Positions 20,935 through 32,896 of a DNA stretch of 32,986 nt are shown here, in pieces; the stretch's first letter is position 1, and each line of letters begins with the position of its first letter. The stretch is from NCBI GenBank assembly GCA_017551925.1, contig JAFZKA010000060.1, positions 1 to 32,986 on the forward strand. The letters are read 5' to 3'. Below the pieces are notes generated by a model that saw nothing but the letters and a program-made list of their open reading frames with translations, had not been told where the DNA came from and searched no databases. The position numbers were made by a program, and so were the translations under genes. This stretch comes from Bacteroidaceae bacterium (GTDB lineage: Bacteria; Bacteroidota; Bacteroidia; Bacteroidales; Bacteroidaceae).

Positions 20935-22416
20935 ATGGCAAAAGAACTGAAAGATCTTACCAAAAGAAGCGAGAACTACTCGCAGTGGTATAATGAACTG
21001 GTAGTTAAGGCTGACCTTGCAGAGCAGGCTCCTGTGCGTGGCTGCATGGTAATCAAGCCTTACGGTTATGCAATCTGGGAAAAGATTCAGCGTACCCTTG
21101 ATGACAAGTTCAAGGAGACCGGTCACGTGAACGCATATTTCCCGCTGCTTATACCAAAGTCATATCTTAGCCGCGAGGCCGAGCATGTGGAGGGCTTTGC
21201 CAAGGAGTGCGCAGTAGTGACACACTACCGCCTCAAGAATGCTGAGGACGGCAGCGGTGTCATTGTGGATCCCGCAGCAAAGCTTGAGGAGGAGCTGATA
21301 GTACGCCCTACATCAGAGACAATCATCTGGGCAACATACAAGAACTGGATCAAGTCATACCGTGACCTGCCTATCCTGTGCAACCAGTGGGCTAACGTAA
21401 TGCGTTGGGAGATGCGTCCGCGTCTGTTCCTGCGTACCGCCGAGTTCCTGTGGCAGGAGGGTCACACCGCACACGCCACTCGTGAGGAGGCTGAGCAGGA
21501 GGCACGCCGAATGCAGCAGGTTTATGCAGACTTTGTTGAGGGTTACATGGCTGTTCCGGTAGTTCGCGGTGTCAAGTCAGAGACCGAGCGTTTTGCAGGT
21601 GCCCTTGATACCTATACCATTGAGTCAATGACTCAGGACGGTAAAGCTCTGCAGTGCGGTACATCACACTTCCTGGGTCAGAACTTTGCCAAGGCCTTTG
21701 ATGTTCAGTTCATCAACAAGGAGAACCAGTTGGAGTATGTATGGGCTACTTCATGGGGCGTATCAACACGTCTGATGGGCGCCCTTATCATGGCTCACTC
21801 TGATGACAACGGTCTGGTTCTGCCTCCAAAACTTGCACCTATACAGGTTGTAATCGTTCCTATCTATAAGAATTCCGATGACCTGGCACAGATAAGCGCC
21901 AAAGTTGACACACTGGTCGAGGCTCTGCGTAAGAAGGGCATCAGCGTTAAGTATGACGATGCTGATAACAAGCGTCCGGGATTCAAGTTTGCCGATTATG
22001 AGGTGAAGGGTGTTCCTGTTCGCGTTGCCCTGGGTATGCGTGACCTTGAGGCCGGCACATGTGAGATTATGCGCCGTGACACTCTGGAGAAGGAGACCGT
22101 TCCGTTTGAGGGTCTTGAGGATCTTATTCCCAACCTGCTTGATGAGATGCAGACCGCAATCTTTGAGAAGGCAAAGGCATGGCGTGACGCACGCATGGTT
22201 GAGGTTAACAGCTATGACGAGTTCAAGGAAAAAATTGAGGCCGGTTACTTTGTTCTGGCTCACTGGGACGGCACCGCTGAGACTGAGGCCAAGATCAAGG
22301 AGGAGACCAAAGCTACAATACGCTGTCTGCCTTTCGGCATGAAGGAGGAGCCTGGCACCGATGTTTACAGCGGTAAGCCCGCAGCGCGCCGCGTGCTCTT
22401 TGCCCGCTCGTATTAA
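20935..22416 (+). CDS. proS: Prolyl-tRNA synthetase, short (archaeal/eukaryotic-like) type
   Basis: Charges tRNA-Pro in the cytoplasm (class II synthetase). The 493-residue length and lack of an editing insertion place it in the ProS type 3 group rather than the longer E. coli type. Visible features are RPTSE (about 122-126), motif 2 [20 protein letters not shown], the substrate loop [21 protein letters not shown], and motif 3 around [15 protein letters not shown]. The anticodon-binding domain begins near [11 protein letters not shown], and a C-terminal domain with [11 protein letters not shown] ends ARSY, matching the family's Zn-type tail. Codon use is that of a highly expressed gene. The stop codon overlaps the convergent TamB-like gene by four bases. 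Confidence 0.97.
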
Positions 22417-25400
22417 AAGTCCATCTCAAATATTAGCCCGACCCCTTGAGTGGTTAGCGTGGTTTTTGAAAAGTATTTGTCGTTGCTTTTGTTGTACCCC
22501 CTGATACTGAGTTTCTTGTCATGACGAGGGGTTTCATACAACAGATATTTGGCATCAAGGTCACCTACAAAACTTGAAGTGTTGTTGATGGTGTTTTCCC
22601 TATAGCCGAAACTTCCGTTTACAAGCAGGCGGTTGTTTAGCAGATGTGCCTCAAGAATGCCCTCCAATTCTTTGTTGTTGAGGTTCGTCGCGTCATTGTT
22701 AAGATAACTGCTGGCACTCAAGTTGCTTGATATGGAGACTTTGTCATTGTCAAGAACCTGTGACAGCAGATTGTTTACCTGTCCGGTCACGGTTGAATTC
22801 ACAAGTGATTCCATTGCGCTGGGGGTGAGTCCCGCATTCATCTCCGGGTTTACATTAAAGGTGTAGAAGCGTCCTATTGCAAGCAGATAGATGAATTGTA
22901 TGTTACGCTGCTCCTCAGTGGCGGTAGCGCTTGCAAGAGTCTCTTTCTCCTCGGATGTACCCGTGGGCATGTCAATATCAAATGTGAGTTTGGGTTCAGA
23001 GACATTGCCTGATATACCTAAGAGGCATCTTACACGTACATTGTTGCTTGATGATGCACTCGGATCCAGATCATATATGGATACTGAATTTACATTGTGG
23101 TATGTAAGCAGGTTAAGTTCCGTATCCATGGGAGAACCATAGAAACGTACATAACTGCCGTCAAGCAATGTAAAGTTTTTGCGTATCAGGTCTTCAACAG
23201 AAAAGGTGCACTGCCCCTGGCTCAGATTATAAATGCCGTTCAGAAACACACCGTTTTTAGGTGTATAGTTGACATAAACGTCTCCGTTACCTCTGAAGAA
23301 TCCTGATAATGAACTGACAGACAAGTCTATGATAGCGTCCTCACTGCACTGTATGTTGAGGTTCAGACTAAAGTTGCTGCTTTTTTTTTTGTTGTCAGAA
23401 AGAATTGCGCTTACTGCGTCATCATTTATTTCAACGGTATTTCTGTCAACTATGGTTATAAAGTTGTAGTCAGCAACAGAACCTGCATTCGGTTTCAGTC
23501 CGAGTCTGGTACCTGGGGCTGTCCTTGCATCGACTTGAATTCCAAGACCATTGCGCTTGTCAAACAGCAGTCGCATACTGCCTTCGGCATAAACGGTAGC
23601 GTAAAAACTGCTTTTTTCTGTTCTGGGCTGATTGTAAACAAGCATATCGGCAACATCGGCAGTCATATCCACACTCCAATTTGAAAAATGGTCATGGTTG
23701 AGTATGCATGAAAGAATACCGTCGTGTCCGTATTCATCATAGAACTCAACGTCTGTAAACTGCATCTGGCCGGGTTTGAACCACAAAGTATCCTGTTTGA
23801 TAAAAAAAGAGGTGTTTACACTTTCCTGAACAAATTCAGCCTCTTCAACAAGAGACTCTCCCTCAAGGTCCAGATCCGGAAGTGTTCCGAACAGACGAAG
23901 ACTGCCTGTGGCGCGACCTGACAGTTCCTTGAAAACACCGCTTGTCCAATGATTGAGGAAATGAAGGTCTGTGTGTCTGGCGTTGATAATGACATCCAGA
24001 TCATTTGTTTTGGGAATGTAATGACCGGATAAAAGGGTTCGCTCAATACCGGGGTTGGTCATCTCGCCATTCAAGACCACTTTTTCATTAATCTGATCCC
24101 AATGGCAGTCTGCAGCCAGACGTCCGTGATAGGAATCCATGAATTCAAAGTCATCAATATTGAATGAACCGTAAAAAACCGGTCTGCCGGTAAGTCCTGC
24201 AATTGATATGTTGCCCGAAGCAATACCCTTTAGCATAATGCTGTTGGCATGCATCATGGATAGGGTGTGGTCCAAGTCTATGTTCTTAAGGAATACGTTA
24301 AGGATATCACTGGAGTCAGCTGAAACAGTGCCGTCAATACCGAGTTTCTGATCAATGTTGCTTATATCCAGACCGTTAACGGTTATTTTACCCTTGTCGG
24401 TACGTATGTCTGTAATTGAGACCTTCCATTCTGTGTTGTTGACATAAACTTTTGTTGAGTCAATCAGGATCATTGATTTGAGGCCGTTCTTAGGGTCATA
24501 TCTGAAGAACTGCGACAATGATTTGGCTGAACCTCTTATATCTCCCTGTGTGTTGCTCCAATTGTAATTGCCGCGAATTATGTCATCAAAAGCCAGAATT
24601 GAGGCCCGGACGTCAACTTTGTCTTTGTCACCGTATTTACCTGAAAGTTCAGAACGGCAGGTGCCCTTATCTGTGTTAAGTACGAACTGCAGTTGCGAAA
24701 TGTTCTCGCCGGCCACCTCAATTGAAGGAACACTGACCTGTCCTGAATATATGCTGTCAGAATCATTGAATGAGAACCTGAATTTGGCCGGATCCTTCAA
24801 ATCAAGCGGGAAGTGGAGGAGAGGTTTGACCATGTCAGTGTTTTCAATATCGGCGTTAATTACAAAGTTGTTTGGACGGACACTCGTATTGTCACCCAAG
24901 TTTGAGGCTACCATTTTTCCTATGGTGGGCAATACATCTCCGCATGCTCTTGACAGGGTGTATGGTAGGGCGGATATGCTGTAGTCTCCTACGACTGACA
25001 GATTGATGAAATCACCGAACAGCGATATGGACTTGGTGCTTTCATTCACATCACCTATGTTTGCGGTCAGGTTTTCAAGATCCCAACTGCCTTCTGAATC
25101 AGAATAGGAGAGACTGTCAAGTGAGAGCTTTCCGTTTATCTCATCTATGTTCTTGCCGTCAAGATCTGCCGTAAAGCGTGCTGACAGAATCAGATTGTCA
25201 CGTTCGGTGAGATTGTAGGCGCTCAGATTAAGACTGTCGGCTGTTATGCGCAGGTCATATGACGGATTGTCACCGATGCCGACCGATGCATCAAGTAACA
25301 AAGAACCGTTTCTGTCAGAAAAGACTAAATCTGATACAATCTTTTCAGGCTCGATGGTTCCGTTTACGGCTATGTCGCGATAATCGTAATTCTTATATGT

Positions 25401-26756
25401 GAGCGATGTTATATCACTGCTGAATGTTCCGGAATACTGTTTCTGTGAACCGGTGATGGCGGCATCGGCCAGAATATCCAACTTTCCAAAGTCGCTGTTG
25501 CCGGTAAGTGCATCAAGCATTATCTCCTTGCCTTGCAGTGAAGCCTGGTGAGTTCCGTTGGCTGAGTTTATGGAGCCGTGCAAGGTACCGGCCTGGCAGA
25601 CCAGGTCTATGTCAGAGTTGATGTCACCGTTTGTACTGTTGCATACCAGGTTGAAAGAACCGTCACCAAGAGCATGGCATTGGTCGGGTAGGGTGATTCC
25701 GAACCCGCAGAGTTGCCCTCCTAACCAGTCGGCCAGATTGTCATTAAACTTGCCGTTCAGCCTTAAGTCGCGGCAACCTTTGAATATTTTTTCCTGTCCG
25801 GTCAGAATTGTGCCGCGACCTTTTATATCAAATATGTCTCCTGCTGACAGCGCAAGTGAACTGACTGAAAGGGTGGTGCCGTTTCCACTGCAATCCAAGG
25901 TCATGTCTATCGGGTCTTCAAGACATGTCAGTTCTGGGAAAAACGATTTGAAGTCACTGCCGGTAACAGAAGCATTGAAATGGGCGTCAAGACTTGGAAT
26001 GCCTTCTGGACGTTTAACAAAACCCGCTTGGGCGTACAATTCTGCAATATTGAATTCGCTTCCCGGTGTTGTGAACTGCAGATTTGAAACATGGGTGAAA
26101 TCTTTTCCCACAGTAACGCTGCCCTTGGTCCTTGACAGTTTGAATCCGGCCTGTTCCGCAAATGCCAGTTTCCTGACAATGAATGCCAGGGAATCAGAAG
26201 CCATGGCCTTGAGCGAGAGATTTGCATTCAGACCGCTAATGGCAATATGGTTCTTGTTGAAAATGCTGTCAGTCTGTTCTGCAGACTTTAAATCATATCT
26301 GATTGAACCGTTGCGGATCAGGATTAAATTCGCTCTGAAAGATTTGCTTGCCCCTTCACCGCCTTTGGAGAGATTTGTCAGGAACGCATAATTCGGTTCT
26401 GAGACGGAATCAGTCCTGTTCAGTTTGACAGAAGGACTTTGCAGTCTTATGCTGGTAATACTGACCTTGTTTTTCAGCAACTGCAGCGGCTTGAGTCGTA
26501 TTACAGCAGAATTGATCTTGACCAAAGTGTCTTTCTCAAGATCAAAAACGGCAAGGTCATCAATGGCAATGCCGAAAGGATATACGATTTGTGTGCGGCC
26601 GGCAGAAACATCGGCATTGAGCGATGACTTGACAATCTTTACGATATATTGAGCCGTTTTCTGCTGAATCTTTTTGTTGTTCAACAGGAAATGGCCTGAC
26701 ATAAAGATTACAATCAGTATTGCCAGAATGATATGTAGTACCTTTCCGAACTTCAT
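22413..26756 (-). CDS. tamB: TamB-like translocation/assembly protein (DUF490, AsmA-like)
   Basis: A giant 1447-residue envelope protein anchored by one N-terminal membrane helix (about 6-25) followed by a long beta-rich periplasmic body of repeating AsmA/TamB type. The C-terminal DUF490 domain is recognised from about 1240 to 1440, with [20 protein letters not shown], then [14 protein letters not shown] and [16 protein letters not shown]. Relatives bridge the inner and outer membranes and are linked to outer-membrane protein assembly or phospholipid transport. The usual TamA/BamA-type partner is not in the window. An ATG at 26756 is preferred to a TTG three bases before. A run of ten A lies in the coding strand at 23381-23390 (Asn-Lys-Lys-Lys-Ser). 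The 3' end overlaps proS by four bases. Confidence 0.9.
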
Positions 26757-26763
26757 CAAAAGG

Positions 26764-27006: not shown

Positions 27007-28356
27007 ATGGCAGAAATCATTCGTTTACGAAAAGGTCTGGACATCAAGTTGCTGGGCGCTCCCGCCAAGGAGTTGACTGAGGTTGGTATGGCATCAGAGT
27101 ATGCTCTGTGCCCTGCTGATTTTACCGGAGTCACTCCCAAGCCGGTCGTCAAGGAACAGCAGACCGTCAAGGCCGGTGAAGCTCTGTTCATTGACAAGAA
27201 CCACCCAGAGGTGAAATACGTTTCACCTGTAAGCGGTGAGGTTACAGCAGTGAACCGTGGCGCACGCCGCAAGGTCTTGAGCATTGTGGTCAAGCCCGAT
27301 GCAAAGCAGACTTATGTCGAGTTCGGAACCAAGAGTGTTCAGTCACTCTCAGGTGATGAGGTTAAGGCTACCCTGCTGGAGTCAGGTCTTTTCTCATTCT
27401 TCCGTCAGCGTCCTTATGACGTTATCGCAAATCCCGCCGATGCACCGAGAGACATATTTGTATCGGCATTTGATTCCAAACCTCTGGCTCCTGATTTTGA
27501 GTTCGTACTCAAAGGCAATGAGGTGGATTTCCGCACCGGTCTGAGCGCAATCGCCAAGATTGCTCCTACAACACTGAGCATCAGCGCTTCACAGACAGCT
27601 GAGACCCTTACCGATGCCAAGAACGTTGACCTGTACGCATTCAAGGGTGCTCATCCCGCAGGTAACGTAGGTGTACAGATCAACCATATCAAGCCCGTAA
27701 ACAAGGGTGAGATTGTATGGACAATTGATCCTGAGGCAGTCATCTTTATCGGCCGTCTGTTCAACAAGGGCGTCGTTGATATGACACGTACCATAGCCGT
27801 AGCAGGCGAGGAGGTTGTAAATCCTCAGTACCTCAAGGTTATTGCAGGTGCCAAGATTGATTCAATCGTTGACGGCCGTCTTAACAGGACTGAGCACATC
27901 CGCATCATCAACGGTAACGTTCTGACCGGTGTCAAGGCCAGCAAGGATGATTTCCTGGGCGCTTTCTCAAACATGATCACCGTTATCCCTGAGGGTGATG
28001 ATGTTAATGAGTTTATGGGCTGGATCGCACCGCGCTTTGGTCAGTTCAGCGTTAGCCGCACATTCTTCTCTTGGCTCGCATGCAAGAAGAACTTCAGCAT
28101 TGATGCACGCATCAAGGGCGGTGAGCGTCACATGATCATGTCAAATGAGTATGATAAGGTGTTCCCCATGGATATCTATCCCGAGTTCCTTATCAAGGCT
28201 ATAATTACGGGCAATATCGACAAGATGGAGGCATACGGTATCTATGAGGTGGCTCCTGAGGATTTTGCTCTCTGTGAGTTTGTGGATTCTTCAAAACTTG
28301 AGCTCCAGCGTATTGTACGCGAGGGCCTTGATAACCTTCGTGCCGAGATGGCCTAA
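27007..28356 (+). CDS. nqrA: Na+-translocating NADH:quinone reductase subunit A
   Basis: A 449-residue cytoplasmic subunit of the Na+-NQR complex, implicated in ubiquinone/menaquinone interaction at the membrane surface. It begins MAEIIRLRKGLDIKLLG, has the biotinyl-lipoyl-like fold segment VKYVSPVSGEV, and contains FSFFRQRPYDVIANP, GAHPAGNVGVQINH and FFSWLACKKNFSID, all characteristic of NqrA. No membrane helix is present, as expected. It is first of six genes in standard order A-F with gaps of 5 to 18 nt. Codon bias indicates high expression. Confidence 0.98.
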   Translation: MAEIIRLRKGLDIKLLGAPAKELTEVGMASEYALCPADFTGVTPKPVVKEQQTVKAGEALFIDKNHPEVKYVSPVSGEVTAVNRGARRKVLSIVVKPDAKQTYVEFGTKSVQSLSGDEVKATLLESGLFSFFRQRPYDVIANPADAPRDIFVSAFDSKPLAPDFEFVLKGNEVDFRTGLSAIAKIAPTTLSISASQTAETLTDAKNVDLYAFKGAHPAGNVGVQINHIKPVNKGEIVWTIDPEAVIFIGRLFNKGVVDMTRTIAVAGEEVVNPQYLKVIAGAKIDSIVDGRLNRTEHIRIINGNVLTGVKASKDDFLGAFSNMITVIPEGDDVNEFMGWIAPRFGQFSVSRTFFSWLACKKNFSIDARIKGGERHMIMSNEYDKVFPMDIYPEFLIKAIITGNIDKMEAYGIYEVAPEDFALCEFVDSSKLELQRIVREGLDNLRAEMA

Positions 28357-28369
28357 AAACTGAAAAGCT

Positions 28370-29533
28370 ATGAGTTTAAGAAATTACATAGACAAGATCA
28401 AACCGAATTTTGAGGAGGGCGGCAAACTGCACGCATTCCGTTCGGTGTTTGAAGGATTCGAGACATTCCTTTATGTACCCAACACCACAGCCAAGAACGG
28501 CGTGAACATTCACGACTCGTTTGACAGCAAGCGTATGATGATTATGGTTGTCATCGCCCTGTGCCCGGCTCTGCTGTTTGGCATGTACAATGTAGGCTAT
28601 CAGCACTTTGCTCTGGCCGGTATGCTTGGACAGGCTACTTTCTGGAGCAAGTTCTGGTTCGGTTTCCTGGCTGTTCTGCCCAGACTGATAGTATCATATG
28701 TAGTAGGTCTTGCCATTGAGTTCGTCGTGGCTCAGTGGAAGCATGAGGAGATTCAGGAGGGTTACCTGGTATCAGGTTTCATCATTCCTCTGATTGTTCC
28801 CGCCACCACACCGCTGTGGATCCTTGCCATTGCAGTGGCATTCTCGGTAATATTTGCCAAGGAGATATTCGGCGGTACAGGCATGAACTTCCTCAATGTG
28901 GCTCTTATTACACGTGCATTCATCTTCTTTGCATATCCTTCAGTTATCACAGGTGAGACCGTTTGGGTGGTTGACCACGCAATCTGCGGCCTGGGTGCTG
29001 ATATTGACGGTATGACCGCTGCTACCGCTCTGGGTACAGCCGCTACCACAGCAACCGCTCCTGCATTCACAATGGATATGGTCTGGGGCTTCATTCCCGG
29101 TTCAGTAGGTGAGACAAGCGTTATCGCAATTGCTCTTGGCGCTCTGCTTCTGCTCTACACCGGCATTGCAAGCTGGAAGACAATGCTTTCAGTGTTCGCA
29201 GGCGGTATCCTGATGGCTCTGGTTTACAATACATGGGGTCCCGACAATGCTATGGCTCAGATGCCCTGGTATGAGCACATCTGCCTGGGCGGTTTCTGCT
29301 TCGGTGCCGTATTCATGGCAACCGATCCTGTTACATCGGCCCGTACAGAGGTTGGTAAGTGGATTTATGGTCTGCTCATTGGTATGATGGCAATCACAAT
29401 CCGTGTGATGAACCCCGGTTATCCTGAGGGTATGATGCTGGCCATCCTGCTCATGAACTGCTTCGCTCCGCTCATTGACTGGTGCGTGGTACAGCGTAAC
29501 GTCAACAAACGTGCTAACAGAATAAACAAATAA
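28370..29533 (+). CDS. nqrB: Na+-translocating NADH:quinone reductase subunit B
   Basis: A 387-residue integral membrane subunit that carries a covalently bound FMN and forms part of the sodium pathway. It starts with NFEEGGKLHAFRSVFEGFETF, typical of NqrB, followed by about ten hydrophobic helices. The probable flavinylation site is Thr219 in DIDGMTAAT (compare the S/T-x-A-T motif of NqrB in general). PGSVGETSVIAIALGALLLL and FMATDPVTSARTEVG are also family hallmarks. It sits 13 nt after nqrA. Confidence 0.97.
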   Translation: MSLRNYIDKIKPNFEEGGKLHAFRSVFEGFETFLYVPNTTAKNGVNIHDSFDSKRMMIMVVIALCPALLFGMYNVGYQHFALAGMLGQATFWSKFWFGFLAVLPRLIVSYVVGLAIEFVVAQWKHEEIQEGYLVSGFIIPLIVPATTPLWILAIAVAFSVIFAKEIFGGTGMNFLNVALITRAFIFFAYPSVITGETVWVVDHAICGLGADIDGMTAATALGTAATTATAPAFTMDMVWGFIPGSVGETSVIAIALGALLLLYTGIASWKTMLSVFAGGILMALVYNTWGPDNAMAQMPWYEHICLGGFCFGAVFMATDPVTSARTEVGKWIYGLLIGMMAITIRVMNPGYPEGMMLAILLMNCFAPLIDWCVVQRNVNKRANRINK

Positions 29534-29538
29534 GGATT

Positions 29539-30357
29539 ATGGCTACGAAAAAATTCAGATGTAAGGTTTGTGGCTATGTCCACGAAGGAGACAAGGCTCC
29601 TGAGAAGTGCCCCATGTGTCAGGCACCTCAGAGTGAGTTTGAAGAGATTGTAGAGGAGGGCGCTGCCGCTTCCAAGAAGGGTCTCAACACCAACAGCAAC
29701 GTTTATACCATCCTCTATGCAGCCGTAATGGTTGTCATCGTGGCATTCCTGCTGGTGTTCGTATCACAGACCCTTAAGGACCGTCAGACCGCCAATGTTA
29801 TCAATGACACCAAGCAGCAGATACTGTCTGCCCTCAACCTGAGGGATCAGGCTGATGTCGCCGCTACTTATGATAAGGTAATTACCGCCGATGCCCTCAT
29901 GCAGGCTGACGGTTCACTTGCCAAATATAACGGTGAGTTCAACACCTCTTATAAATCAGAGTTTGACAAGGGTAACCTTCATGTATTTGAGGCCAGCATT
30001 AACGGTCAGAAGAAATATGTGATTCCTATGAACGGACTTGGACTGTGGGGTACAATCTGGGGCTACATTGCTCTCAATGAGGACCGCACTACCGTTTACG
30101 GCGTATATTTCTCACACTCATCTGAGACCCCGGGTCTGGGTGGTGAGATTGCCGGAACCAAGTTCCAGGACCGTTTCCCCGGCAAATCTGTTGTTGATGG
30201 CAATAATGTGGCTCTCAAGGTGCTCAAGTACGGCAAGGCCGACAAGAGTTCAAAGTATGAGATTGACGGTGTTACCGGTGCTACTATCACATCAACCGGT
30301 GTGAATGCGATGATTAACAAGGTGCTTTCAGCATACCTTCCGTTCCTGACAAAATAA
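29539..30357 (+). CDS. nqrC: NqrC with N-terminal rubredoxin-like domain
   Basis: A 272-residue Na+-NQR subunit with an unusual extension. Residues 1-36 form a rubrerythrin-type rubredoxin module: C8-x2-C11-G-Y then C24-x2-C27, with 12 residues between the pairs as in rubrerythrin. A linker (37-54) precedes the membrane helix at about 55-77, with NTNSNVYT at 50-57, where ordinary NqrC proteins begin. The periplasmic FMN domain follows; the flavinylation motif DGVTGAT (243-249) has Thr249 as the expected FMN attachment residue. GLGLWG and SSETPGLGGEI are family hallmarks. The four Cys would bind one Fe and, given the usual NqrC topology, lie in the cytoplasm beside NqrF. The frame is continuous with no frameshift sign, and codon use is uniform across the junction. 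It lies five nt after nqrB, preceded by AAGGATT as is nqrD. Confidence 0.96.
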   Translation: MATKKFRCKVCGYVHEGDKAPEKCPMCQAPQSEFEEIVEEGAAASKKGLNTNSNVYTILYAAVMVVIVAFLLVFVSQTLKDRQTANVINDTKQQILSALNLRDQADVAATYDKVITADALMQADGSLAKYNGEFNTSYKSEFDKGNLHVFEASINGQKKYVIPMNGLGLWGTIWGYIALNEDRTTVYGVYFSHSSETPGLGGEIAGTKFQDRFPGKSVVDGNNVALKVLKYGKADKSSKYEIDGVTGATITSTGVNAMINKVLSAYLPFLTK

Positions 30358-30369
30358 TTGATAAGGATT

Positions 30370-30990
30370 ATGGCAAACAAGAATAATGAGGCTCTCAAGC
30401 AGCCTATGTGGGCTAACAACCCTGTTTTGGTCCAGATTCTGGGTATCTGCTCTGCACTTGCGGTTACCGCTCAATTGAAACCGGCCATCGTGATGGGTCT
30501 TTCAGTGACCATCATCGTTGCTATGGCAAACGTGATTATCTCACTCCTGCGCAATACAATACCTAACCGTATCCGTATTATCATACAGCTGGTTGTTGTA
30601 GCTGCTCTGGTAACAATAGTAAGTGAGATCCTTAAGGCATTTGCTTATGATGTAAGCGTTCAGCTTTCAGTATACGTAGGTCTTATCATTACCAACTGTA
30701 TCCTTATGGGCCGTCTTGAGGCTTTTGCAATGCAGAACGGTCCCTGGGCTTCTTTCCTGGATGGTATAGGTAACGGTCTGGGTTATGCCGCAATACTGAT
30801 TGTGGTTGCTTTTGTACGTGAACTTTTTGGTAGCGGAACATTGTTCGGATTCCAGGTAGTACCGCAGTGCTTCTATGAGGCCGGTTACCTGAACAACGGA
30901 CTTATGATCATGCCTCCTATGGCACTTGTGCTGGTAGGTTGCGTTATCTGGTTCCATCGTGCCAAGAACAAGGATTTACAGGAAAACTAA
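30370..30990 (+). CDS. nqrD: Na+-translocating NADH:quinone reductase subunit D
   Basis: A 206-residue membrane subunit with about six helices, paired with NqrE in an inverted-topology dimer. The conserved cysteines thought to bind iron-sulfur or iron at the D/E interface are Cys27 in LGICSALAVT and Cys110 in TNCILMGR. The frame is open from a TTG 12 nt upstream, but the ATG at 30370, preceded by ATAAGG, gives the family start MANKNNEALKQPMW. RELFGSGTLFG is another marker. It is 12 nt after nqrC. Confidence 0.97.
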   Translation: MANKNNEALKQPMWANNPVLVQILGICSALAVTAQLKPAIVMGLSVTIIVAMANVIISLLRNTIPNRIRIIIQLVVVAALVTIVSEILKAFAYDVSVQLSVYVGLIITNCILMGRLEAFAMQNGPWASFLDGIGNGLGYAAILIVVAFVRELFGSGTLFGFQVVPQCFYEAGYLNNGLMIMPPMALVLVGCVIWFHRAKNKDLQEN

Positions 30991-31008
30991 TCTCAAAGCG
31001 TTAGAACT

Positions 31009-31617
31009 ATGGAACATTTTTTCAGTCTATTCGTAAGGTCAATCTTCGTTGACAACATGGTGTTCGCCTTCTTCCTGGGTATGTGCTCATTCCTGGCCGT
31101 ATCCAAGAACGTAAAGACGGCTTTGGGACTTGGTGCTGCCGTGATATTCGTGCAGTTCATTACACTCCCTGTAAACTATCTCCTTCAGACAAAGGTTCTT
31201 GATCCTATGGGTCTTGGATTCCTGAGTTTCATACTTTTCATTGCGGTTATTGCCGGTATCGTTCAGTTGGTTGAGATGATAGTTGAGAAGTTCTCACCGT
31301 CACTCTACAACTCACTGGGTATATTCCTGCCGCTTATCGCTGTTAACTGCGCCATCATGGGCGGCTCCCTGTTCATGCAGCAGCGTATCGGCATGGATCC
31401 CGATAATACCCAGGCCATCACTTGCTTTGGTGATTCTATCGCCTTTGCACTGGGCTCAGGTATCGGTTGGGCTCTGGCAATCGTTTGCTTAGCCGCTATC
31501 CGCGAGAAGATGGAGTATTGCGATATTCCCAAGCCTCTGAAGGGTGTAGGTATTACATTCATTACCGTAGGCCTGATGGCTATGGCTTTCATGTGTTTCT
31601 CAGGTCTGTCAATTTAA
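31009..31617 (+). CDS. nqrE: Na+-translocating NADH:quinone reductase subunit E
   Basis: A 202-residue membrane subunit homologous to NqrD. Family features are [20 protein letters not shown] at the start, Cys26 in [15 protein letters not shown], Cys114 in [15 protein letters not shown], and [11 protein letters not shown]. The two cysteines match those of NqrD and complete the shared metal site. About six helices are predicted. It is 18 nt after nqrD. Confidence 0.97.
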
Positions 31618-31630
31618 AAAAGGTAAGATT

Positions 31631-32896
31631 ATGAATCTGTATATATCAAGTATTATAGTTTTCCTGGCCGTTATCCTGCTGCTGGTAGTCATACTGCTGG
31701 TGGCCAAGAGCTACCTTGTTGCCTCAGGCAAGGTCAAGGTAACCATCAACGGTGACAAGGAACTTGAGGTTAATTCAGGTGCAAGCCTTTTGAGCACCCT
31801 GGCTGAGAACGGCGTTTATCTGCCATCGGCCTGCGGTGGTAAGGGTTCTTGCGGACAGTGCAAATGCCAGGTCGTTGAGGGCGGCGGTGAGATTCTGGAC
31901 TCTGAGAAGGGCCACTTTACCCGCAAGCAGATCAAGGACAACTGGCGTCTGGGTTGCCAGTGCAAGGTCAAGGGTGACCTGGCCATAAAGGTTCCTGAGA
32001 GTGTACTGGGTGTAAAAGAGTGGGAGTGCGAGGTTATCTCCAACAAGAACGTTGCTACCTTCATCAAGGAGTTCATCGTTCAGCTTCCCGCCGGCGAGCA
32101 TATGGACTTCCTGCCTGGTAGTTACGCTCAGATCAAGATTCCCGCATACTCTATGGATTATGACAAGGATATCGATAAGGATCTTATCGGTCCTGAGTAT
32201 CTGCCCGCATGGGAGAAGTTCGGTCTCTTTGGCCTCAAGTCAGTGGTTACCGAGCCTACCATCCGTGCTTACTCTATGGCCAACTATCCTGCCGAGGGTG
32301 ACCGCATCATGCTGACGGTACGTATCGCTACTCCTCCTTTCAAACCGAAACCGGAGGTTGGTTTCCAGGATGTTCCCACCGGCGTGGCTTCATCATATAT
32401 CTTCAGCCTCAAGCCCGGTGACAAGGTTATCATGTCAGGTCCTTACGGTGAGTTCCATCCTATCTTTGACTCCAAGAAGGAGATGATTTGGGTTGGCGGC
32501 GGTGCCGGTATGGCTCCTCTGCGTGCTCAGATCATGCACATGACCAAGACCCTTAAGACCACTGACCGTGAGATGCATTATTTCTACGGTGCACGTGCCC
32601 TTAACGAGGTGTTCTATCTGCAGGACTTCCTGGGTCTGGAGAAGGAGTTCAAGAACTTCCACTTCCATCTGGCTCTGGACCGTCCTGATCCCGCAGCCGA
32701 TGCAGCAGGTGTTAAGTACACCGCTGGCTTTGTACACAACGTGATGTATGAGACATACCTTAAGGACCATGAGGCTCCTGAGGATATCGAGTACTACATG
32801 TGCGGTCCCGGCCCCATGTCAAAGGCCGTTACCGGTATGCTGGACAACCTGGGTGTTGATCCCGCCTCAATCATGTACGATAACTTTGGCGGCTAA
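31631..32896 (+). CDS. nqrF: Na+-translocating NADH:quinone reductase subunit F
   Basis: A 421-residue subunit that accepts electrons from NADH. An N-terminal membrane helix covers about 5-26. A plant-type [2Fe-2S] ferredoxin domain (about 35-125) holds Cys68, Cys74, Cys77 and Cys109 (SACGGKGSCGQCKC and LGCQC). The FAD-binding domain has RAYSMANYP at 212-220. The NADH-binding part has WVGGGAGMAPLRAQ (about 287-300), FYGAR, and YYMCGPGPMSKAV near the end, with the terminal aromatic FGG motif. The length is near the usual 405-425. It closes the operon 13 nt after nqrE and is followed by two hairpins. Confidence 0.98.
   Translation: MNLYISSIIVFLAVILLLVVILLVAKSYLVASGKVKVTINGDKELEVNSGASLLSTLAENGVYLPSACGGKGSCGQCKCQVVEGGGEILDSEKGHFTRKQIKDNWRLGCQCKVKGDLAIKVPESVLGVKEWECEVISNKNVATFIKEFIVQLPAGEHMDFLPGSYAQIKIPAYSMDYDKDIDKDLIGPEYLPAWEKFGLFGLKSVVTEPTIRAYSMANYPAEGDRIMLTVRIATPPFKPKPEVGFQDVPTGVASSYIFSLKPGDKVIMSGPYGEFHPIFDSKKEMIWVGGGAGMAPLRAQIMHMTKTLKTTDREMHYFYGARALNEVFYLQDFLGLEKEFKNFHFHLALDRPDPAADAAGVKYTAGFVHNVMYETYLKDHEAPEDIEYYMCGPGPMSKAVTGMLDNLGVDPASIMYDNFGG

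Follow-up and report, generated by a model that had tools for sequence, protein, structure and literature searches.

The window analysed here, a stretch of 32,986 nucleotides from a Bacteroidaceae bacterium (contig JAFZKA010000060.1), holds an nqrABCDEF set that spans positions 27007-32896, with nqrC inside it. All six genes lie on the forward strand: nqrA at 27007..28356 (PF24836, PF05896, and PF11973), nqrB at 28370..29533 (PF03116, E 1.7e-95), nqrC at 29539..30357, nqrD at 30370..30990 (PF02508, E 6.8e-58), nqrE at 31009..31617 (PF02508, E 3.5e-56), and nqrF at 31631..32896 (PF00111, PF00175, and PF00970). The last of these encodes the NADH/FAD and [2Fe-2S] subunit, which is the electron donor proposed below. 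The end of nqrB, at 29533, is five bases ahead of the nqrC ATG. In the case of nqrD, two starts should be kept in mind, an in-frame TTG at 30358 and an ATG at 30370, of which the ATG looks likelier. Upstream of nqrA, a 1448-residue ORF on the minus strand (22413-26759) is TamB/AsmA-like by eye.

The nqrC product, 272 amino acids long, can be sub-divided into four parts. Residues 1-38 (29539..29652) form a rubredoxin-like domain of the short-spacing FeCys4 type (RUBY_RBDX, PF21349). This is followed by a cytoplasmic linker (29653..29703; start-codon scan and alignment), a single transmembrane helix at about residues 56-79 (29704..29775; by eye and by homology to NqrC), and a periplasmic FMN-binding part with a TGAT(I)T region (29776..30357; PF04205 and TIGR01938). 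The assignment as NqrC follows from FMN_bind (PF04205) matching residues 168-263 at E 4.3e-19 in Pfam and TIGR01938 giving 191.2 bits against a cut-off of 144; the narrower model NF003750 gives 307.7 bits, under its cut-off of 352. Among 58 aligned NqrC rows, the helix residues Y56, Y60, V65, V68, and A69 are invariant, as are T249 and T251 of the FMN attachment region. The best NCBIfam NqrC model aligns from residue 49 onward. In some relatives (L006, L048, L051, L115, and L149), the FMN domain is followed by a tail that contains Cys; its expected location is periplasmic, and metal binding there is possible.

An earlier reading of this DNA from its letters alone (the sequence-only reading) had described a complete rubrerythrin-type Fe(Cys)4 motif ahead of the NqrC helix, and the profile searches bear this out: PF21349 matches residues 6-35 at E 2.4e-15, with 56.1 bits against a cut-off of 26.5. 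The domain is in frame with the NqrC core within a single ORF (29539-30357, forward strand). Its cysteines at 8, 11, 24, and 27 make up CxxC-x12-CxxC, in the positions and with the spacing first described, and the end given for the feature, 29650, is about right, the Pfam match ending at base 29643. The best PDB sequence matches of the domain are the rubrerythrins 1ryt and 1b71 (E 5.4e-9), which we take to be those of Desulfovibrio vulgaris. Canonical rubredoxin (PF00301) has no match in NqrC in the Pfam search at E 0.1, and the spacing between the Cys pairs is 12 rather than long. Nor does Pfam find a diiron four-helix domain in the chain, which is thus neither a rubrerythrin nor a reverse rubrerythrin; model NF045767 gives 39.2 bits against a cut-off of 200. 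The presence of a rubredoxin-like domain on NqrC, N-terminal to the membrane helix, is confirmed as real at the level of the sequence, and its four cysteines are a candidate site that would bind one iron. A passage of PMC12174285 describes NqrC/RnfG as having a single N-terminal helix with the large domain outside; because of that topology the rubredoxin-like domain is predicted to be cytoplasmic, the side on which the extension had been expected.

One should ask whether translation could begin downstream of the domain, for example in the NTNSN region, an alternative that the earlier reading had itself raised. After residue 1, in-frame start codons occur at residue 26, within the domain, and at residues 64, 68, and 73, within the helix; since there is none in the linker, such a start is unavailable and can be excluded. 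The use of the domain's own ATG is also visible in synonymous divergence. In fused genes, the first codons of the domain have the lowest dS (0.13 over codons 1-12 vs 0.58 over codons 37-48; 190 pairs), and at the old NqrC start there is no such dip (0.66 vs 0.62 over the next 25 codons). Unfused genes, for which only 25 pairs could be used, have 0.48 at the start vs 2.08 next. Low dS at the domain's first codons, and not at the old NqrC start, therefore supports translation from the domain's ATG. Recombination as a cause of the lower dS of the domain was dropped, the start-codon gradient being sufficient to explain it.

For the question of fusion we gathered a non-random set of NqrC cores, from which one short sequence (L161) and 23 duplicates were removed (167 to 144). 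The fusion is carried by 67 of the 144 distinct cores, and these come from many assemblies, which excludes assembly error or frameshift; together with its presence in Parabacteroides distasonis, this upholds the original view that the extension is not an assembly artefact. Fused rows were defined by two CxxC pairs 8-20 residues apart, so that forms with a broken pair would count as unfused; by this definition CxxC-x12-CxxC is present in 67/67 distinct fused sequences. No CxxC occurs in the first 45 residues of any of the 77 unfused NqrC. Tblastn of up to 300 bases upstream (E 0.01) found no remnant of the domain before unfused nqrC (0/77) and, as a control, recovered the domain in 67/67 fused genes. 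By the Nei-Gojobori method, the domain has an omega of 0.105 and the core one of 0.107 (46 loci at 80-98.5% core identity, compared in 194 pairs; loci are shared between pairs, which are thus non-independent). Purifying selection on the domain equals that on the core.

Many Bacteroidales of the gut and rumen carry the fusion, among them the gut bacterium P. distasonis. In the window's genus it is present in 30 of the 32 genomes with a match (37 searched), and in the window's family in 39 of the 108 with a match at E 1e-30 (121 searched). All 39 were verified in the DNA, as were 52 of the 69 others; the remaining 17 were assigned by match range alone. Within the order, at least five more fused genomes lie outside the family (G347, G138, G161, G406, and G224), among 247 with a match (295 searched), and a phylum sample of 395 genomes gave 20 matches at E 1e-40, among which only G000, the window's own genome, and G224 are fused. 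Where the source of a locus is named, 21 of 23 are fused, mostly ruminant and horse MAGs titled Bacteroidales, Bacteroidaceae, or Prevotellaceae; the exceptions are L052, which is unfused, and L055, a rubrerythrin-like gene of a Selenomonadaceae bacterium. In P. distasonis TSDC17.2-1.1 the fused nqrC (WP_005856889.1) lies within nqrABCDEF, and its core is about 43% identical to that of the window. Judged by listed match starts only (residue 42-49), the domain is absent from Bacteroides finegoldii, Phocaeicola massiliensis, Prevotella nigrescens, and Prevotella sp. oral taxon 299. The sequence L111 (NZ_OY725779.1) is labelled a plasmid yet carries nqr, holA, and dihydroorotate dehydrogenase genes, and is more likely a piece of chromosome.

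A tree of NqrC cores was built by a quick method and left unrooted, after rows of at least 92% identity had been thinned (144 to 125, of which 51 are fused). On it the fused/unfused label requires 16 changes, at least 10 of which are forced by the starred branches, compared with a mean of 39.7 when labels are shuffled; long branches (L075, L065, L062, L059, and L149, with L059 and L062 meeting) and 43 weak inner branches out of 122 should be kept in mind when these numbers are read. A single clade of fused cores is rejected (p-AU 4e-140). By contrast with the cores, a single clade for all 48 NqrC domains is not rejected (p-AU 0.61), a comparison based on 34 columns and of little power; there is accordingly no support for the idea that each lineage captured the domain from a rubrerythrin of its own. 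Perhaps there was a single origin of the domain, followed by many losses or transfers. A divergent form without CGY, with CGQ or CGK instead, occurs in five (L026, L032, L125, L148, and L149) of the 51 fused rows left after thinning, and these may perhaps derive from a second source. The search for homologues and their mapping on a tree, which had been suggested as a check, has thus been answered in part: the fusion is patchy and its state has changed repeatedly.

The domain is present in one and absent from the other of several sister rows, for example G071/G029, G068/G117, G038/G060, and G109/G074. Within the window's genus, L052 (RUG12511; G435 has an identical core) shares the leader and the MATKK start and then passes directly into the NqrC core; it is placed among fused relatives and is therefore read as an in-frame loss of the domain. 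Also unfused in this genus is G423, where the gene is cut at its 3' end by the end of the contig. At the other extreme, the NqrC of G094 (L020:1492-2640, minus strand) has 382 amino acids and opens with three rubredoxin-like domains in tandem, of which the first and second are nearly identical in protein sequence. It is the sole triple among the 11 genomes of its genus with a match (15 searched); by match range, five others are single and five unfused. On this comparison of sequences, the NqrC domain is a swappable module. The same relatives bear on the suggestion that the domain stands in for a factor like NqrM in delivering iron to NQR or maturing its cofactors. NqrM (PF04400) gave no match in 25/25 genomes; as the 14 control genomes were equally silent, this counts neither way. 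Close relatives without the domain retain the same kind of nqrC, and we hold this role to be very unlikely. A chance fusion without function, carried as a neutral passenger, would fit the patchy distribution and the clean losses. Such a passenger is hard to reconcile with an omega near 0.1 across the domain, with four cysteines kept in 67/67 sequences and no decayed form seen, or with persistence of the domain between cores as far apart as those of the window and P. distasonis, and we give it hardly any credence.

As to the type of domain, the kinship to rubrerythrins that had been proposed stands, with the qualification that the closest proteins found are reverse rubrerythrins, whose rubredoxin domain is N-terminal, and not the classical ones. 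Within the window's own genome the closest domain (66% identity; G000 C43) belongs to a reverse rubrerythrin by layout, and genomes such as G000, G022, G038, and G161 hold both a classical rubrerythrin, with a C-terminal domain, and a reverse one. Asn and His at two places are each present in 7/7 classical rubrerythrins, in 0/54 NqrC domains, and in 0/30 reverse rubrerythrins. The place after the second Cys pair is Lys in 30/30 reverse rubrerythrins; in the NqrC domains it is Glu in 37/54 and Lys in 6/54. By these residues, the NqrC domain is of the reverse-rubrerythrin type. Near a reverse rubrerythrin gene in G161, a 67-residue open frame (L235; C7:71500-73200) encodes little beyond a rubredoxin-like domain.

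These residues may also bear on the potential. According to a passage of PMC6033852, which cites Luo 2010, Asn and His raise the potential in the rubrerythrin of D. vulgaris, and on our reading of the alignment the places counted here would be that pair. Passages of PMC7482061 give +10 and -10 mV for the centres of Clostridioides difficile reverse rubrerythrins and +185 to +281 mV for those of the classical rubrerythrin type, and part of PMC6033852 gives about -110 mV for the short-spacing rubredoxin domain of FDP_F. Our guess is that the potential of the NqrC domain is in the low class, near the +10/-10 mV of the C. difficile reverse rubrerythrins, or about -110 to +50 mV.

The best explanation at hand, which we hold tentatively and at somewhat under even chances, is that the domain is a cytoplasmic centre on a tether, which passes electrons of NqrF on to reductases of O2 or H2O2. 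Residues 1-38 would be a rubredoxin-like module on a cytoplasmic tether, with one iron held by four cysteines. The mobile [2Fe-2S] domain of NqrF, or else the inward-open cluster of NqrD/E, would supply electrons singly, and the module would hand them to soluble diiron O2/H2O2 reductases, with reverse rubrerythrin the first candidate. NQR would in this way be branched, NADH electrons passing either to menaquinone with sodium pumping or to the removal of O2 and H2O2 when oxygen is met. The iron, the potential, the donor, the acceptor, and the function of the domain are all given here as we infer them, and NADH:rubredoxin oxidoreductase activity would be a putative role of the fused NQR. From the last Cys to Tyr56 there are 28 residues in the window; by alignment, 48 fused rows have 20-35 such residues, some of which still belong to the domain. 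A tether of this length may let the domain reach along the cytoplasmic face. On energetic grounds, a low-class centre could accept electrons from NqrF and donate them to diiron peroxidases, its potential being too positive for it to feed the pump. Because of the predicted low-class potential and the tether, an electron exit to reverse rubrerythrin or a similar protein is favoured. The three tandem copies in G094 count for this exit; against it, the NQR operon persists without the domain after repeated loss, and a zinc site would look alike in sequence. A precedent for the chain is C. difficile FDP_F, in which, as the relevant part of PMC6033852 describes, NADH electrons pass through flavin and a short rubredoxin domain to diiron O2 reduction.

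The question of zinc leads to the alternative of a structural or docking module, off the electron path, which would bind zinc or iron and would recruit a cytoplasmic partner or steady assembly. Rubredoxin-type and zinc-ribbon sites are hard to separate by sequence, and two of the divergent domains (L125 and L149) match Zn_ribbon_8 as well, under its cut-off. Clean losses are tolerated, and the surface change from Lys in reverse rubrerythrins to Glu in most NqrC domains is such as a new partner might require. Against this, NqrC is an electron-carrying subunit of a redox pump, and such domains carry electrons in rubrerythrins and FDP_F, their function elsewhere being stated as unknown in part of PMC6033852. 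We consider a docking role unlikely but worth keeping in mind.

The same centre might instead be an electron buffer or a redox switch, which would store an electron or sense oxygen and slow or uncouple pumping with no outside acceptor. NADH donates two electrons and NQR moves one at a time, and the potential predicted for the NqrC domain lies near that of menaquinone; a mismatch of this kind would suit a buffer, and the three copies in G094 would suit a store. A flexible tether, however, suits delivery above a fixed relay, and we regard this role as improbable. Nor do we expect the flow to run the other way, with reduced cytoplasmic rubredoxin-like or rubrerythrin carriers feeding NQR through the domain. 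It is true that RNF, a relative of NQR, accepts electrons from ferredoxin, as a passage of PMC12174285 states, but about -110 to +50 mV would be too high a potential to drive the clusters of NqrF or NqrD/E and to power sodium pumping with menaquinone as acceptor, and free rubredoxin was not found in 12/40 fused genomes. Entry is less likely because of that predicted potential, and we would put its chances as slim indeed.

In assessing the exit of electrons from NqrF, one might look for partner genes that accompany the fusion. Our panel held 40 fused and 40 unfused genomes, chosen by us among those at hand and many of them incomplete. Within it, neither free rubredoxin (absent from 12/40 fused and 8/40 unfused; Fisher p 0.44) nor flavodiiron protein (absent from 6/40 and 5/40; p 1.0) is associated with the fusion, and tree-controlled pairs, eight on starred branches, had too few partner-gene differences for a decision. 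Six fused genomes (G104, G070, G088, G050, G068, and G138) have neither free rubredoxin nor flavodiiron protein. With nqrC itself counted, all 80 genomes match the rubredoxin domain, and rubredoxin-domain genes beyond nqrC are present in 79/80; the exception, G068 (84% complete), matches only once and so may have no rubrerythrin with such a domain. The electron exit put forward in the sequence-only reading thus fits the predicted potential and the kinship of the domain, whereas the genes for free rubredoxin and flavodiiron protein do not follow the fusion. In the window's genome, matches to these two proteins adjoin on opposite strands (G000:C93:26728-27641).

How does this NqrC compare with known systems? 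It shares with known NqrC the FMN_bind domain, the T(S)GAT(I)T region, and the nqrABCDEF context, and differs in its extra N-terminal rubredoxin-like domain, to which no matched solved NqrC chain aligns. One of these chains, 3lwx_A, corresponds to residues 73-270 of P. distasonis NqrC with one difference in 198 residues, and P. distasonis is presumably also its source. The first residue of the chain corresponds to residue 72 or 73, so the construct was apparently made without the N-terminal part. Like reverse rubrerythrins, NqrC has the domain at the extreme N-terminus, with CxxC-x12-CxxC and, at the two places tied to the potential, mostly Val and Ala; unlike them, it has no diiron bundle after the domain, is a membrane subunit, and has Glu for Lys in 37/54. 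The FDP_F of C. difficile likewise uses a short-spacing rubredoxin domain as a module of an NADH-driven electron chain (part of PMC6033852), although it is soluble, has its own diiron site, and is not a sodium pump. RnfG of the RNF complex is a homologous FMN subunit with one N-terminal helix, but no rubredoxin-like domain was matched in solved RnfG chains.

We found no description of an NqrC-rubredoxin fusion in the open-licence literature on NqrC or NQR with rubredoxin or rubrerythrin; one paper that came up, PMC5924567, is unrelated to it. The word rubredoxin is absent from the main texts of the NQR papers PMC10739449, PMC6560451, and PMC12174285, and NQR is described with one cofactor chain in parts of PMC12174285 and PMC10739449. 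We regard the complex as the known NQR in a variant form, with a domain that is real and a function that is putative.

A conserved, repeatedly changed iron-type domain on the moving electron-shuttle subunit of NQR suggests a branch or control point. The fusion bears on questions that are stated as open in parts of the literature: the electron donors of C. difficile reverse rubrerythrins are given as unknown in PMC7482061, and in B. thetaiotaomicron NROR is one electron source for rubredoxin and not the sole one (PMC5210497). The matter is directly testable, with fused P. distasonis and close relatives without the domain as natural controls. It is possible, if doubtful, that some Bacteroidales have an NQR from which electrons of NADH can leave by one to three rubredoxin-like centres on tethers, which would make this pump a missing donor of reverse rubrerythrins. 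If this is true, a respiratory pump would couple energy conservation to the removal of oxygen and peroxide in strict anaerobes.
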